Assembly (NCBI RefSeq): GCF_900113245.1
Contig: NZ_FOOQ01000001.1
Coordinates: forward strand, 62,001 to 126,000
Reading direction: 5' to 3'
Length of the DNA: 64,000 nucleotides
Source: Halopelagius inordinatus
GTDB taxonomy: Archaea; Halobacteriota; Halobacteria; Halobacteriales; Haloferacaceae
The notes below the pieces were generated by a model, which was not told where the DNA came from, ran no database searches, and saw only the letters and a program-made list of their open reading frames with translations. A program made the translations under genes and the position numbers. Of this stretch, positions 36,578 through 40,651 are shown one piece after another. The first letter of the stretch is position 1. Every line of letters starts with the position of its first letter.

Positions 36578-36820
36578 ATGTCCGACAGTCCCGCCGCTGA
36601 TTCGTTTCGGTACGCGCTGAATCCCGAGCTGCTCAAACTCTACGGAGTGACCGTCCTCGGGTACTTCGTCACCGTCTCCTCGCAGAACGCGTTCCTCATC
36701 GTCGCCGACACCGAACCGTGGGAGAGTCTCGTTGAACTCCCCTTCGTCCTCTGCGGGTTGGCACTCTTCTTCGGCGGCCTCGTCGGCGTCGTCCACCGCG
36801 TCCTGACCGACGCGGCGTAG
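36578..36820 (+). CDS. 80-residue membrane protein, unknown function
   Basis: An 80-residue protein with two or three hydrophobic segments, YGVTVLGYFVTVSSQNAFLIV and LPFVLCGLALFFGGLVGVVHRV, and a hydrophilic N-terminus (MSDSPAADSFRYALNPELLKL). An acidic loop DTEPWESLVE separates the helices. No family is recognised; small haloarchaeal membrane proteins like this are common. It follows the signalling operon by 97 bases with its own A+T-rich promoter region and dyad. Confidence 0.65.
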   Translation: MSDSPAADSFRYALNPELLKLYGVTVLGYFVTVSSQNAFLIVADTEPWESLVELPFVLCGLALFFGGLVGVVHRVLTDAA

Positions 36821-36912: not shown

Positions 36913-36933
36913 CGGAAGAACGGAGTTCTTCCG
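36913..36933. terminator. Perfect 9-bp hairpin upstream of the helicase gene
   Basis: CGGAAGAAC-GGA-GTTCTTCCG is a perfect stem of nine base pairs with a 3-base loop, about 90 bases downstream of the stop of the preceding gene and about 50 bases before the helicase TATA box. A role as terminator of the upstream transcript or as operator is possible. Confidence 0.4.
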
Positions 36934-36985
36934 TGCTTCCGTTCGCCTTCGGCTCACGGAAACTCCGTTCGGCAACGCATAGAAG

Positions 36986-36994
36986 CTTTTTACC
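36986..36994 (+). promoter_or_regulatory. TATA-box promoter of the helicase gene
   Basis: CTTTTTACC, about 27 bases upstream of the GTG at 37017; this spacing favours that start codon. Confidence 0.5.
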
Positions 36995-37016
36995 TCGGCG
37001 GGAAGCAGGGACGCAC

Positions 37017-38876
37017 GTGGACCCCTCGCGTATCCTCCCCTCTTTCCCGGCCCCGAGTTACCGCGGAACCCAAGAGCAAGCGCTCCGCGACATCCGCGAC
37101 GCGTTCGCCGCCGGAAACGACGTGGTGTTGGTGCGCGCGCCGACGGGAAGCGGGAAGTCGCTCCTCGCGCGTTCCATCGCGGGCGCGGCCCGGACCGTAG
37201 AGGAGGCGGCCCCCGCGGAGGCGACGGACGCGTACTACACGACGCCGCAGGTGTCGCAACTCGACGACGTGGCCGAAGACGAGTTACTCTCTGACCTGCA
37301 AGTCATCCGGGGCAAGCGAAACTACGACTGCATCATAAACGGCGAGGAGGACACGCCGGTGGACCGCGCACCCTGCGCCAGACAGAAGGGGTTCGACTGC
37401 ACGGTCCGTCACCGCTGTCCGTACTTCTCGGACCGCGCCATCGCCTCGAACAGGCAGATAGCGGCGATGACGCTCGCGTACTTCATGCAGACCGCCGGGT
37501 CGGACGTGTTCCGAAAGCGCGACGTCGTGGTGATAGACGAAGCGCACGGACTCGCAGAGTGGGCGGAGATGTACGCGACCATCGACGTGAACCCGCGAAC
37601 CGTCCCCGTCTGGGACGACGTGGGCGTCCCCGACGTGACGGCGGCGGACGACCCCGTCGAACGGGCGGTTCGGTTCGCGGACGCCCTGACGGGCATCTGT
37701 AAGCGCGCGAAAGACGAGTTGCTCACGAAACCCGAACTGACGCCCGAGGAGGCCGCGCGCCGCGACCGGTTGCAGGAACTCCGCTCGGAGTTGCAGTGGT
37801 TCGTAGAGGACTACCGCAACCCCGAGAGCGCGACGACGTGGGTGGTAGACCAACCCGACGGCGAGGGGATGAGCATCAAACCGCTCGACCCCGAGCGGTA
37901 TCTCCACCACACCGTCTGGGACCGCGGAAACAAGTTCGCCCTGCTGTCTGCGACGATTCTCAACAAGGAGGCGTTCTGCCGCGGCGTGGGTCTCGACCCC
38001 GACGACGTGGCTCTCGTGGACGTCGAACACACGTTCCCCGTGGAGAACCGCCCCCTGTACGACGTGACGCAGGGGAAGATGACGTACGAACACCGCGACG
38101 AGACGCTTCCGAAGGTGGCGCGCGTCCTCGTCCGACTGCTGGCGCACCACCGCGAGGAGAAGGGTCTCGTCCACTGTCACTCCTACGCCATCCAGTCGGA
38201 ACTGAAGCGCCGACTCGCCCAGTTGGGTCTCGGAAATCGAATCCGCGCTCACGACAGGGAGAACCGCGACGCCGAACTGGAGTCGTGGAAGGCGACGGAC
38301 GACCCCGACGTGTTTCTCTCGGTGAAGATGGAGGAGGCGTTAGACCTGCGCGGCGACCTCTGTCGCTGGCAGGTCGTCTGTAAGGCCCCGTACCTCAACA
38401 CGAACGACTCCCGCGTCGCGCGCCGCCTCGAAGACGGCCAGTGGCCGTGGTACCGCCGCGCCGCCCTCAGAACGGTCATCCAAGCGTGCGGGCGAGTCGT
38501 CCGCGCGCCCGACGACTACGGCGCGACGTATCTCGCGGATTCGAGCCTGCTCGACCTGTTCGAACGAACGCGTTCGGACATGCCCGCGTGGTTCCGCGAA
38601 CAGGTAGACCGGACGACGGACCCCGACCTCCCGGAGTTCGACCCCGCGGCGGCGGGCGGACGGGCGGGGACTCGGTCGGGCGGAATATCGACGTCGAAGA
38701 GCGCACCAGCCTCGAAATCGACGCGGAACGGTCGCCCCGGCGGGAGTCGAGGAAACTCCTCGGGCGGTTCGGGCGGCGGTTCTCGGACCGACGCCGGGTC
38801 GAACTCGTCGTCGGAGTCGGGCGGCGCTACCGGACGGTCGAACCATCCGCTCTCGGACGTCTGGGGCGACGGTTAG
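37017..38876 (+). CDS. XPD/DinG-type Fe-S DNA helicase
   Basis: A 619-residue superfamily 2 DNA helicase. Walker A is APTGSGKS (41-48), four cysteines C105, C120, C128 and C134 form the Fe-S site, and Walker B is IDEAH (173-177). The C-terminal half has the motifs LLSATIL, GLVHCHSYAIQSELKRRL, VFLSVKMEEALDL and IQACGRVVRAPDD. Such enzymes unwind DNA in repair (XPD/DinG/Rad3 group). The last 75 residues are a disordered Ser/Gly/Asn-rich linker ending in HPLSDVWGDG. The GTG start at 37017 is chosen for its TATA box; an upstream ATG at 36933 is not supported. Confidence 0.92.
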   Translation: MDPSRILPSFPAPSYRGTQEQALRDIRDAFAAGNDVVLVRAPTGSGKSLLARSIAGAARTVEEAAPAEATDAYYTTPQVSQLDDVAEDELLSDLQVIRGKRNYDCIINGEEDTPVDRAPCARQKGFDCTVRHRCPYFSDRAIASNRQIAAMTLAYFMQTAGSDVFRKRDVVVIDEAHGLAEWAEMYATIDVNPRTVPVWDDVGVPDVTAADDPVERAVRFADALTGICKRAKDELLTKPELTPEEAARRDRLQELRSELQWFVEDYRNPESATTWVVDQPDGEGMSIKPLDPERYLHHTVWDRGNKFALLSATILNKEAFCRGVGLDPDDVALVDVEHTFPVENRPLYDVTQGKMTYEHRDETLPKVARVLVRLLAHHREEKGLVHCHSYAIQSELKRRLAQLGLGNRIRAHDRENRDAELESWKATDDPDVFLSVKMEEALDLRGDLCRWQVVCKAPYLNTNDSRVARRLEDGQWPWYRRAALRTVIQACGRVVRAPDDYGATYLADSSLLDLFERTRSDMPAWFREQVDRTTDPDLPEFDPAAAGGRAGTRSGGISTSKSAPASKSTRNGRPGGSRGNSSGGSGGGSRTDAGSNSSSESGGATGRSNHPLSDVWGDG

Positions 38877-38962
38877 GTAAAGAGGAAGCTGGCTCCGTAG
38901 GCGAACATCGACCCGACCATCAGGAAGACCAAGACGAGCGCCAGTATCTGCTGTCTGTCCAT
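38873..38962 (-). CDS. 29-residue single-helix membrane protein
   Basis: A tiny gene, start ATGGACAGACAGCAG, coding for a 29-residue peptide with sequence MDRQQILALVLVFLMVGSMF followed by AYGASFLFT. A short polar N-terminus and one hydrophobic helix are clear, and the pattern resembles a recurrent haloarchaeal micro-protein. Its last four bases overlap the end of the helicase gene on the other strand. No strong TATA box is evident; an A-rich stretch lies 25-30 bases upstream. Function unknown; it could be a regulatory or complex-associated membrane peptide. Confidence 0.6.
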   Translation of the reverse strand: MDRQQILALVLVFLMVGSMFAYGASFLFT

Positions 38963-39217: not shown

Positions 39218-39412
39218 ATGCACACACACGCCCTCACCACGGCGATGACACTGTACCAAAGCGGGACGCTCTCGCTCTCCGAGGCGGCCGCCCGCGCTGG
39301 CAGGTCCGAACGCGAACTGGTCGCCGCGCTGAAACAACACGGTATCCCCCTCCGAGACGACTCCGGTGCGGCGGTGTCCACCGGGACGGACTCGCCCGTC
39401 GGTGCCGACTGA
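39218..39412 (+). CDS. Small HTH-like protein
   Basis: A 64-residue protein with a helix-turn-helix-like pattern, MTLYQSGTLSLSEAAARAGRS followed by ERELVAALKQHGIP, resembling the small UPF0175-type antitoxin-like DNA-binding domains, and a Ser/Thr/Asp-rich tail (SGAAVSTGTDSPVGAD). The A+T-rich spacer upstream contains a perfect palindrome. No toxin partner gene is adjacent. Its role as a regulator is inferred from the fold pattern; no target is known. Confidence 0.6.
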   Translation: MHTHALTTAMTLYQSGTLSLSEAAARAGRSERELVAALKQHGIPLRDDSGAAVSTGTDSPVGAD

Positions 39413-39428: not shown

Positions 39429-40550
39429 TTACTCTTCGTCCGACTCCACCGCGTCAGCGGGTAGTATGTGCAGTCCCGCCCGACTCTTCAGCACCGGCAC
39501 CGTCGACTCGTCGGGGTCGAAGTACGAGGGCCGGGAGATGGTTTTCGACTCGTACGTCTCGGGGTCGAGCAGTTGGACCGCGTGTTCGTCCTCGACGGTA
39601 ACGACGGTGGTCTCTTCTGCCTCCTCGACGGTTCCGAGCGTCCGGGCGTCCGGCGTCTCTCCCTCCTCGAACTGCGCTTCGTACTCCGCTCCGCTGTCGA
39701 GGCGGACGCCCTTCAGGTTGCCTTGGACGCTCCGGACGAGGACGGGTCCGTCGTCGTCGGGTTCGATGACCTCGCCGGGCGTGAACTTCGGCAGGCGAAC
39801 GGCGTAGGTGACGCGGTACACCTCGTTGCCGTCGCCGTCCTCGGTGACGAGCGTCGGATACTCCTCGAAACTCCCGCCGAGTTCGCGGACGATACGCTTC
39901 GAGACGCCTCGGCCCATCTGGTTCGTCGATATCTTGATGTCGGGGCCCTCGGGCGTTTGGTTCACCTCGGTGATGAACGCGTCGCGGTCGCCCTTCTCCT
40001 CGCGCTTTGCGATGTACGTCTCCGCGATTTCTGTGGCCCGCGCCTGTTCCTCCGCGGTCGGCGTGCGTTCGTTCGCGCGTATCTGGACGGTACTGGAGTA
40101 GTACCCCCCAGCGATGCGCCCGCAGCGTTGACACGTCTCCCGGGAGATGCGCACCGGCACCGTCACCGTCTCTTCGAGGTACGTGCCGCGGACGAGACCC
40201 GAGAACGTACTGTGGATGCGGATGCTGTTTTCGTCCACCTGTTCGGCTTCGAGTCCCCACTGGACGTCCTCGGCTTTGAGGTGGACGCCGAGTGCGTCGC
40301 TCACCTCCTCTATGGCGATGTCGGTGTAGTCGCGAGCACCCACGTCCACCCAGCGGTTTCCACGGTGGACCGCCCCGCACTGCGCGCAGACGCGGACCTG
40401 AATCCGGTCGGGTGCGTCGACCAACTCGAAGTCCTCGAAGTAGCACTCGTCGCAGAGCACCGCGTCTCGTTCGCGGGGCATCCCGGGAAGCGGTTCCGCT
40501 CGCTTCGGAACCGGATCCCCACAGCGCGGACAGAAGTCGCCAGAACTCAT
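39429..40550 (-). CDS. nmd3: NMD3 family ribosome-export/quality-control protein
   Basis: A 373-residue NMD3 homologue. The N-terminal zinc sites are C7/C10 (FCPRCGD), C33/C36 (CDECYF), C55/C58 (VCAQCG) and C140/C143 (TCQRCGRIAGGYY). Middle and C-terminal regions show KISTNQMGRGVSKRIVREL and DGPVLVRSVQGNLKGVRL, typical of the family. In eukaryotes NMD3 exports the large ribosomal subunit; in archaea it probably serves large-subunit maturation, close to aIF6. A CTTAAAAG element at 40573-40580 is 27 bases upstream of the ATG. The ATG at 40550 begins at the first zinc domain. Confidence 0.92.
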   Translation of the reverse strand: MSSGDFCPRCGDPVPKRAEPLPGMPRERDAVLCDECYFEDFELVDAPDRIQVRVCAQCGAVHRGNRWVDVGARDYTDIAIEEVSDALGVHLKAEDVQWGLEAEQVDENSIRIHSTFSGLVRGTYLEETVTVPVRISRETCQRCGRIAGGYYSSTVQIRANERTPTAEEQARATEIAETYIAKREEKGDRDAFITEVNQTPEGPDIKISTNQMGRGVSKRIVRELGGSFEEYPTLVTEDGDGNEVYRVTYAVRLPKFTPGEVIEPDDDGPVLVRSVQGNLKGVRLDSGAEYEAQFEEGETPDARTLGTVEEAEETTVVTVEDEHAVQLLDPETYESKTISRPSYFDPDESTVPVLKSRAGLHILPADAVESDEE

Positions 40551-40572
40551 CGTACGGCGTAGGCCGCGAGGA

Positions 40573-40580
40573 CTTTTAAG
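40573..40580 (-). promoter_or_regulatory. TATA-box promoter of nmd3
   Basis: CTTAAAAG on the minus strand, centred about 27 bases upstream of the ATG at 40550. Confidence 0.55.
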
Positions 40581-40651
40581 ATGCACGACAGGCGCGTCGG
40601 TCCCCTCTCACCCGCGTTCGGACGTCGGGAGTTCGACGCCGCCTCACCGCG

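Follow-up and report, generated by a model that had tools for sequence, protein, structure and literature searches.

A near-universal 29-residue haloarchaeal membrane microprotein gene whose predicted helix resembles S-layer signal sequences

The window analysed here is a 64,000-nucleotide stretch of the Halopelagius inordinatus genome (contig NZ_FOOQ01000001.1, positions 62,001 to 126,000 of the forward strand), and all coordinates are those of the window. Between a helicase gene of the XPD/Rad3/DinG type and the genes for a DUF7317 protein and an NMD3 family protein lies a short reading frame on the minus strand, hereafter the microprotein gene (Table 1). The initial annotation had described this frame as running complete from start to stop, and it does so, with an ATG at 38962, 29 codons and a TAA at 38875..38873. 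The stop codon of the convergent helicase, TAG, occupies 38874..38876, giving the four-base overlap that had also been pointed out. The description of the frame as antisense to the helicase end applies to these four shared bases of the two stop codons and to nothing beyond them. The peptide consists of a polar MDRQQ followed by approximately 23 hydrophobic residues (mean Kyte-Doolittle value of 2.3 over residues 6–28), in agreement with the short polar N-terminus and single hydrophobic helix proposed earlier. It has fewer than 30 residues, contains no Cys motif and is predicted to span the membrane. It belongs to the general kind of small single-span membrane protein, with fewer than 50 residues, one hydrophobic span and selection acting on the protein. 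In Haloferax relatives (L079; lineage name inferred) the corresponding peptide is MDRQQVIALTLVALMIGSALLSGASLFL.

Table 1 Features at the microprotein locus, in window coordinates.
Feature	Coordinates	Strand	Evidence or remark
XPD/Rad3/DinG-type helicase, convergent neighbour	36933..38876	plus	Pfam Helicase_C_2 1.3e-26, DEAD_2 7.4e-6
TTAG common to both stop codons	38873..38876		microprotein TAA (minus) and helicase TAG (plus)
Microprotein gene, 29 aa, MDRQQILALVLVFLMVGSMFAYGASFLFT	38873..38962	minus	residues 6–28 form the hydrophobic span
TATA-like ATTGAA	38987..38992	minus	-30..-25; placed for a leaderless transcript
BRE-like CGAAA	38995..38999	minus	-37..-33 from the start codon; upstream sequence and column conservation (113 genes)
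64-aa DUF7317 protein, divergent neighbour	39218..39412	plus	Pfam DUF7317 1e-10
NMD3 family protein, upstream neighbour	39429..40586	minus	Pfam NMD3 9.6e-59

Two further observations concern the neighbouring genes. The DUF7317 protein also shows a weak likeness to UPF0175 (1.6e-7), and in the family of the window its gene is inverted and stands at the place that a Trm5 gene takes between NMD3 and the microprotein in other families. Directly upstream of the helicase, a plus-strand frame at 36578..36820 encodes 80 residues with hydrophobic stretches and matches no Pfam family.

The window peptide was matched in 159 of the 170 genomes of its own family, which represent 26 of 28 genera (E<=1). The reversed peptide, used as a control, gave matches in 11 of 99 genomes with a best E value of 0.046; ten of these fell inside open frames of at least 600 codons and the remaining one in a 212-codon frame. 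A search of the class with a 14-row profile (E<=1) recovered 383 of 391 genomes, with 85 of 86 genera represented; by a manual count, 355 of the 391 genomes reach E<=1e-4. Some of the matches weaker than 1e-4 are signal sequences of other proteins, while others, such as those in L138, L140, L150 and L163, are orthologues that have diverged in sequence but remain syntenic. The divergent microproteins, of the type NKRNKFIALTFAVLMATSMIAMPAMHLF, are found at these four loci and at L177 and are almost missed by profile searches; they are regarded as syntenic orthologues because four of the five adjoin a Trm5-type gene and the helicase.

For analysis at the gene level, 113 distinct coding sequences were taken from 132 loci. 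All 113 encode 26–30 residues; they start with ATG (110) or GTG (3) and stop with TGA (45), TAG (42) or TAA (26). Ser18 is present in all 113 distinct genes, Met15 in 112, Leu14 in 111, Ala8 in 110 and Arg3 in 109. When 44 disjoint close pairs were compared, 260 mismatches fell at the first codon position, 81 at the second and 388 at the third, and identity was 0.79 within the gene, 0.42 in the immediate upstream spacer, 0.27 further upstream and 0.35 downstream. The dN/dS ratio, computed from 51 disjoint pairs, was 0.29. Clustering of the conserved residues on one helical face was not significant (p 0.14; detrended 0.09). The suggestion that the frame belongs to a conserved haloarchaeal micro-protein was therefore borne out, as frame, start and stop are kept across the class; a lack of conservation of the frame or start codon in relatives, named at the outset as the result to look for against it, did not occur. 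Such frames do arise by chance in high-GC DNA and are common in haloarchaea, according to the part of PMC4500146 available to us, yet the distribution, the reversed-peptide control, the kept frame, start and stop, and the purifying selection together leave a negligible chance that this one is spurious. We regard the frame as a genuine gene with near certainty, and it is a core-genome haloarchaeal gene under purifying selection.

When the 113 upstream regions were aligned on their start codons, a CGAAA-like element appeared between about -37 and -31 and an A/T box between -28 and -25. Position -10 favours A, and position -1 is a pyrimidine in all but one of the genes (112 of 113). A 4-mer composed entirely of A and T starts between -32 and -25 in 77 of the 113; the corresponding counts for two control windows are 12 and 7. 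These elements agree with the haloarchaeal promoter motifs given in the available text of PMC4983044, namely the BRE consensus CGAAA, the TATA motif TTWT and a -10 WW. The spacing of the motifs implies that transcription would begin on the ATG or beside it, and the mRNA is thus predicted to be leaderless, as are 72 percent of protein-coding transcripts in the haloarchaeal data of the same available text. Moreover, the BRE/TATA promoter stays with the microprotein gene even when the latter lies in other gene contexts. Several other families most often have the genes in the order NMD3, a Trm5-type methyltransferase (Pfam TRM5-TYW2), the microprotein and then the helicase on the opposite strand. 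An operon with Trm5 was considered for this arrangement and set aside, as the promoter lies directly before the microprotein gene and is kept in other contexts.

The proposed check for synteny with an XPD-type helicase showed that the convergent placement is common: the helicase lies within 700 bases in 94 of the 132 microprotein loci and is convergent but further off in 15, while it is absent from the fetched stretch in 22 and one locus is at a contig end. In the 78 distinct adjacent loci, the two genes overlap or are separated by at most 50 bases in 56, and the exact overlap of four bases seen in the window recurs in 20. The helicase itself was found in 285 of 292 genomes. Two genomes (G170 and G175) have the microprotein and lack the helicase, six (G021, G022, G215, G247, G288 and G350) have the helicase and lack a convincing microprotein, and in Haloplanus- and Halobaculum-like genomes (lineage names inferred) the two genes are far apart. 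A functional link to the helicase was rejected on these grounds, that each gene is found without the other and that the pair is distant in some genomes, and the helicase is a positional neighbour of the microprotein, not a partner. Of 20 genomes picked for a missing or weak microprotein, nine also lack the helicase, a joint loss that is most simply explained by deletion of neighbours. In genus g21, genomes G148, G116 and G117 are without both genes while most of the searched members have both, which likewise looks like deletion of the neighbourhood.

The close convergent arrangement in those 56 of 78 loci would also be expected if the conserved unit were an RNA, whether small or antisense, or a helicase terminator, with the peptide incidental to it. 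This reading is very improbable. The overlap occurs in just 20 of the 78 loci and then spans merely four bases, the gene and its promoter persist where no helicase lies alongside or in the genome, and the codon-position pattern and dN/dS ratio indicate selection on the protein; an Rfam search gave no match near the gathering score.

When compared with Pfam and NCBIfam, the window peptide matched no model above cut-off, a result that fits the earlier remark that automatic annotation misses such genes. Pfam DUF5325 matches six of 76 microprotein members, with a best E value of 3.5e-4. No microprotein match better than E 0.022 was obtained in PHROGs, a PDB profile search returned none up to E 10, and plasmids, phages and viral contigs gave no match. 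In the literature searched, no paper contained the string MDRQQ and no description of the microprotein was found; a record in H. volcanii small-proteome work is possible. In that organism the detection limit of proteomics is near 30 residues, as stated in the available part of PMC12482152, and a limit of this size would hide the microprotein. The gene probably escaped the family models by being too short for gene callers and mass spectrometry. It is of interest as a gene that almost all of the examined haloarchaeal genomes contain and that none of the family models searched covers.

Weak profile similarity was found to Prli42 (NF033880), a 31-residue Firmicutes membrane miniprotein that the microprotein also resembles in its size and single span. 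NF033880 matches 10 of the 76 members at E<=0.1, and in a blind scan of 59 genomes with this model three of the five matches at E<0.1 were the microprotein (G203, G206 and G031). The microprotein could accordingly be read as a membrane tether like Prli42, with a cytosolic tail that passes a stress signal to a soluble complex. However, the curated cut-off of this model (27.5 bits) was reached by no match in the 59 genomes, and the best of ten members scanned scored 18.1 bits. Prli42 binds through the basic residues K4, K5 and R8, according to the accessible portion of PMC6614362, whereas the microprotein, with its MDRQQ, lacks a strongly basic tail (among 106 peptides, residues 1–7 carry a net charge of 0 in 88, +1 in 16 and -1 in 2). 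In addition, the N-terminal domain of the stressosome partner RsbR (Rsbr_N, PF08678) was not found in any of 20 relatives, with a positive control in Bacillus subtilis. Such a tether is unlikely, and we give it very little weight.

A closer resemblance is to TIGR04207, the NCBIfam model halo_sig_pep for the signal region of surface (S-layer) glycoproteins in haloarchaea, which matches 36 of the 76 members at E<=0.1 with a best value of 1.5e-6. Its cut-off of 24.6 bits was passed by one of ten members scanned, at 27.7 bits, and the window peptide scored 17.7 bits, under that cut-off. The search was also run in reverse, with a 76-row microprotein profile against 20 whole genomes. The top matches were the 20 microproteins, each with at least 48.5 bits, and the secondary matches followed at least 24 bits behind. 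Of the latter, 40 of 53 lie on same-strand TIGR04207 sites. Among the 28 with E<0.1 the number is 26, and in 16 of 18 genomes the best secondary match falls on such a site. A decoy profile with permuted helix columns, built from 40 of the 76 rows and with its matches counted by hand, gave 28 matches, of which 13 were the microprotein itself and none of the other 15 lay on a TIGR04207 site. In the register that HMMER sets independently, to which a check of positions was added, peptide residues 6–26 lie on profile positions 2–22, and Ala8, Leu14, Met15, Ser18 and Ala21 of the peptide correspond to A4, L10, M11, S14 and A17 of the signal. From the matched sites, the core motif reads A4-x5-L10-M11-x2-S14-x2-A17. 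The two share an A-x5-L-M-x2-S-x2-A core in register, a basic residue ahead of the hydrophobic stretch and a wide occurrence in haloarchaea. The helix of the microprotein is very probably a specific look-alike of the S-layer signal sequence. This likeness is new here; the positional-only link to the helicase and the microprotein's own promoter had likewise not been seen earlier.

The signals of the surface proteins are mainly K-x-R-A-V-F-L-A-A-L-M-V-L-S-V-F-A-G. An Arg precedes the core in 62 of 68 TIGR04207 sites, and Met and Ser, on which the script was anchored, are present in 68 of 68. So high a conservation would not seem to be required of a generic Sec signal.

The microprotein differs from the TIGR04207 signals in being a stand-alone gene with a stop after 26–30 codons (113 of 113) and no glycoprotein attached, in ending 8–12 residues past the invariant Ser18 and in an N-terminal net charge that is mostly 0. 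Charge beyond residue 7 is absent from all 106 peptides. The window peptide contains no A-x-A site for signal peptidase, and a strict A-x-A between residue 23 and the end occurs in 14 of the 106 distinct peptides, where it sits among the final few residues. Peptides and signals were also compared within genomes, in a reduced set of 68 of 77 genomes. At 12 variable positions a peptide shares 3.75 identities with the signals of its own genome compared to 3.21 after shuffling (z 5.1), and shuffling within families gives an expectation of 3.39 (z 4.0). Six of eight misaligned registers show no excess; register -2 is borderline (p 0.049 overall and 0.061 within families) and register +3 also scores clearly (z 4.6 overall and 3.1 within families). 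The covariation of peptide and signal is no more than suggestive, and residue preferences common to whole lineages may account for part of it.

The arrangement of a basic residue ahead of a stretch that is free of charge beyond residue 7 predicts a signal anchor whose N-terminus lies inside. In the mechanism that we propose, a short leaderless mRNA of its own would yield a single-span membrane protein of 26–30 residues, which would insert as a signal anchor, keep its MDRQQ on the inner side, escape cleavage and stay in the membrane. The simplest reading of the residues that it keeps in common with the S-layer signal is that the same partner reads both. The microprotein might then dock at the site used by that signal, either the lateral gate of the Sec translocon or a dedicated targeting factor, and there tune or assist export of the surface glycoprotein, whether by helping, gating or competing. 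Transcript start, topology, non-cleavage, shared receptor and export role are all inferred here. In its general form, that of an uncleaved look-alike of the signals on S-layer and further surface glycoproteins, with a role in surface-protein export, this reading stands at slightly short of an even chance.

Recruitment of nascent S-layer glycoprotein to midcell ahead of its Sec-dependent export, reported in the available part of PMC7157517, makes an export role worth testing; we noticed no targeting mechanism in that part. In a more specific and rather improbable version, A-x5-LM-x2-S-x2-A would be a private signal code and the microprotein its free, uncleaved carrier, which meters, gates or places S-layer export, perhaps at midcell. 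It would be part of this version, and shares its low probability, that the private surface-glycoprotein code is read by a dedicated receptor or a dedicated state of the translocon. Independently of this version, the helix of the microprotein offers a lead, based on sequence, towards a partner, as its specific likeness suggests that S-layer signals are recognised by something particular.

The main rival to an export role is that the microprotein is an accessory helix, a single-span subunit or regulator of another membrane complex, with its signal likeness due to shared ancestry or to the need for insertion by Sec and not to a common function. Small membrane regulators with one span are common, and the evidence at the gene level, comprising distribution, constraint and promoter, fits this account equally. 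Moreover, microprotein and S-layer signal each occur alone in some genomes: G060, G197 and G301 have the microprotein and no TIGR04207 match at E<=0.01, and G215 and L162 have an S-layer-type signal and no microprotein. Similar N-terminal anchors are also carried by exported proteins of about 290–310 residues in other archaea. Against it, the secondary matches of the reverse search are nearly confined to one signal family instead of extending to signal anchors generally, and no partner gene is linked. As regards the export role, it counts against it that no gene neighbourhood among the loci examined ties the microprotein to secretion. We consider the accessory helix a serious contender, at somewhat less than an even chance.

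Outside the class, the best matches are to the N-terminal anchors of proteins that other archaea export, with E values to 1.6e-6 per genome. The search that gave these matches also takes S-layer signals of haloarchaea to 2.5e-5, and the anchors are for that reason treated as near the noise floor and not claimed as homologues. Exported-looking proteins of approximately 290–310 residues with a microprotein-like N-terminal anchor occur in L168-L175 (families f13 and f15 of the same phylum), an example of the anchor being KSARILALILALIMIGSVLAYA. The three of these proteins that were compared with Pfam matched no family above cut-off. In L171, a 96-residue NMD3-like frame lies less than 1 kb from the anchor protein.
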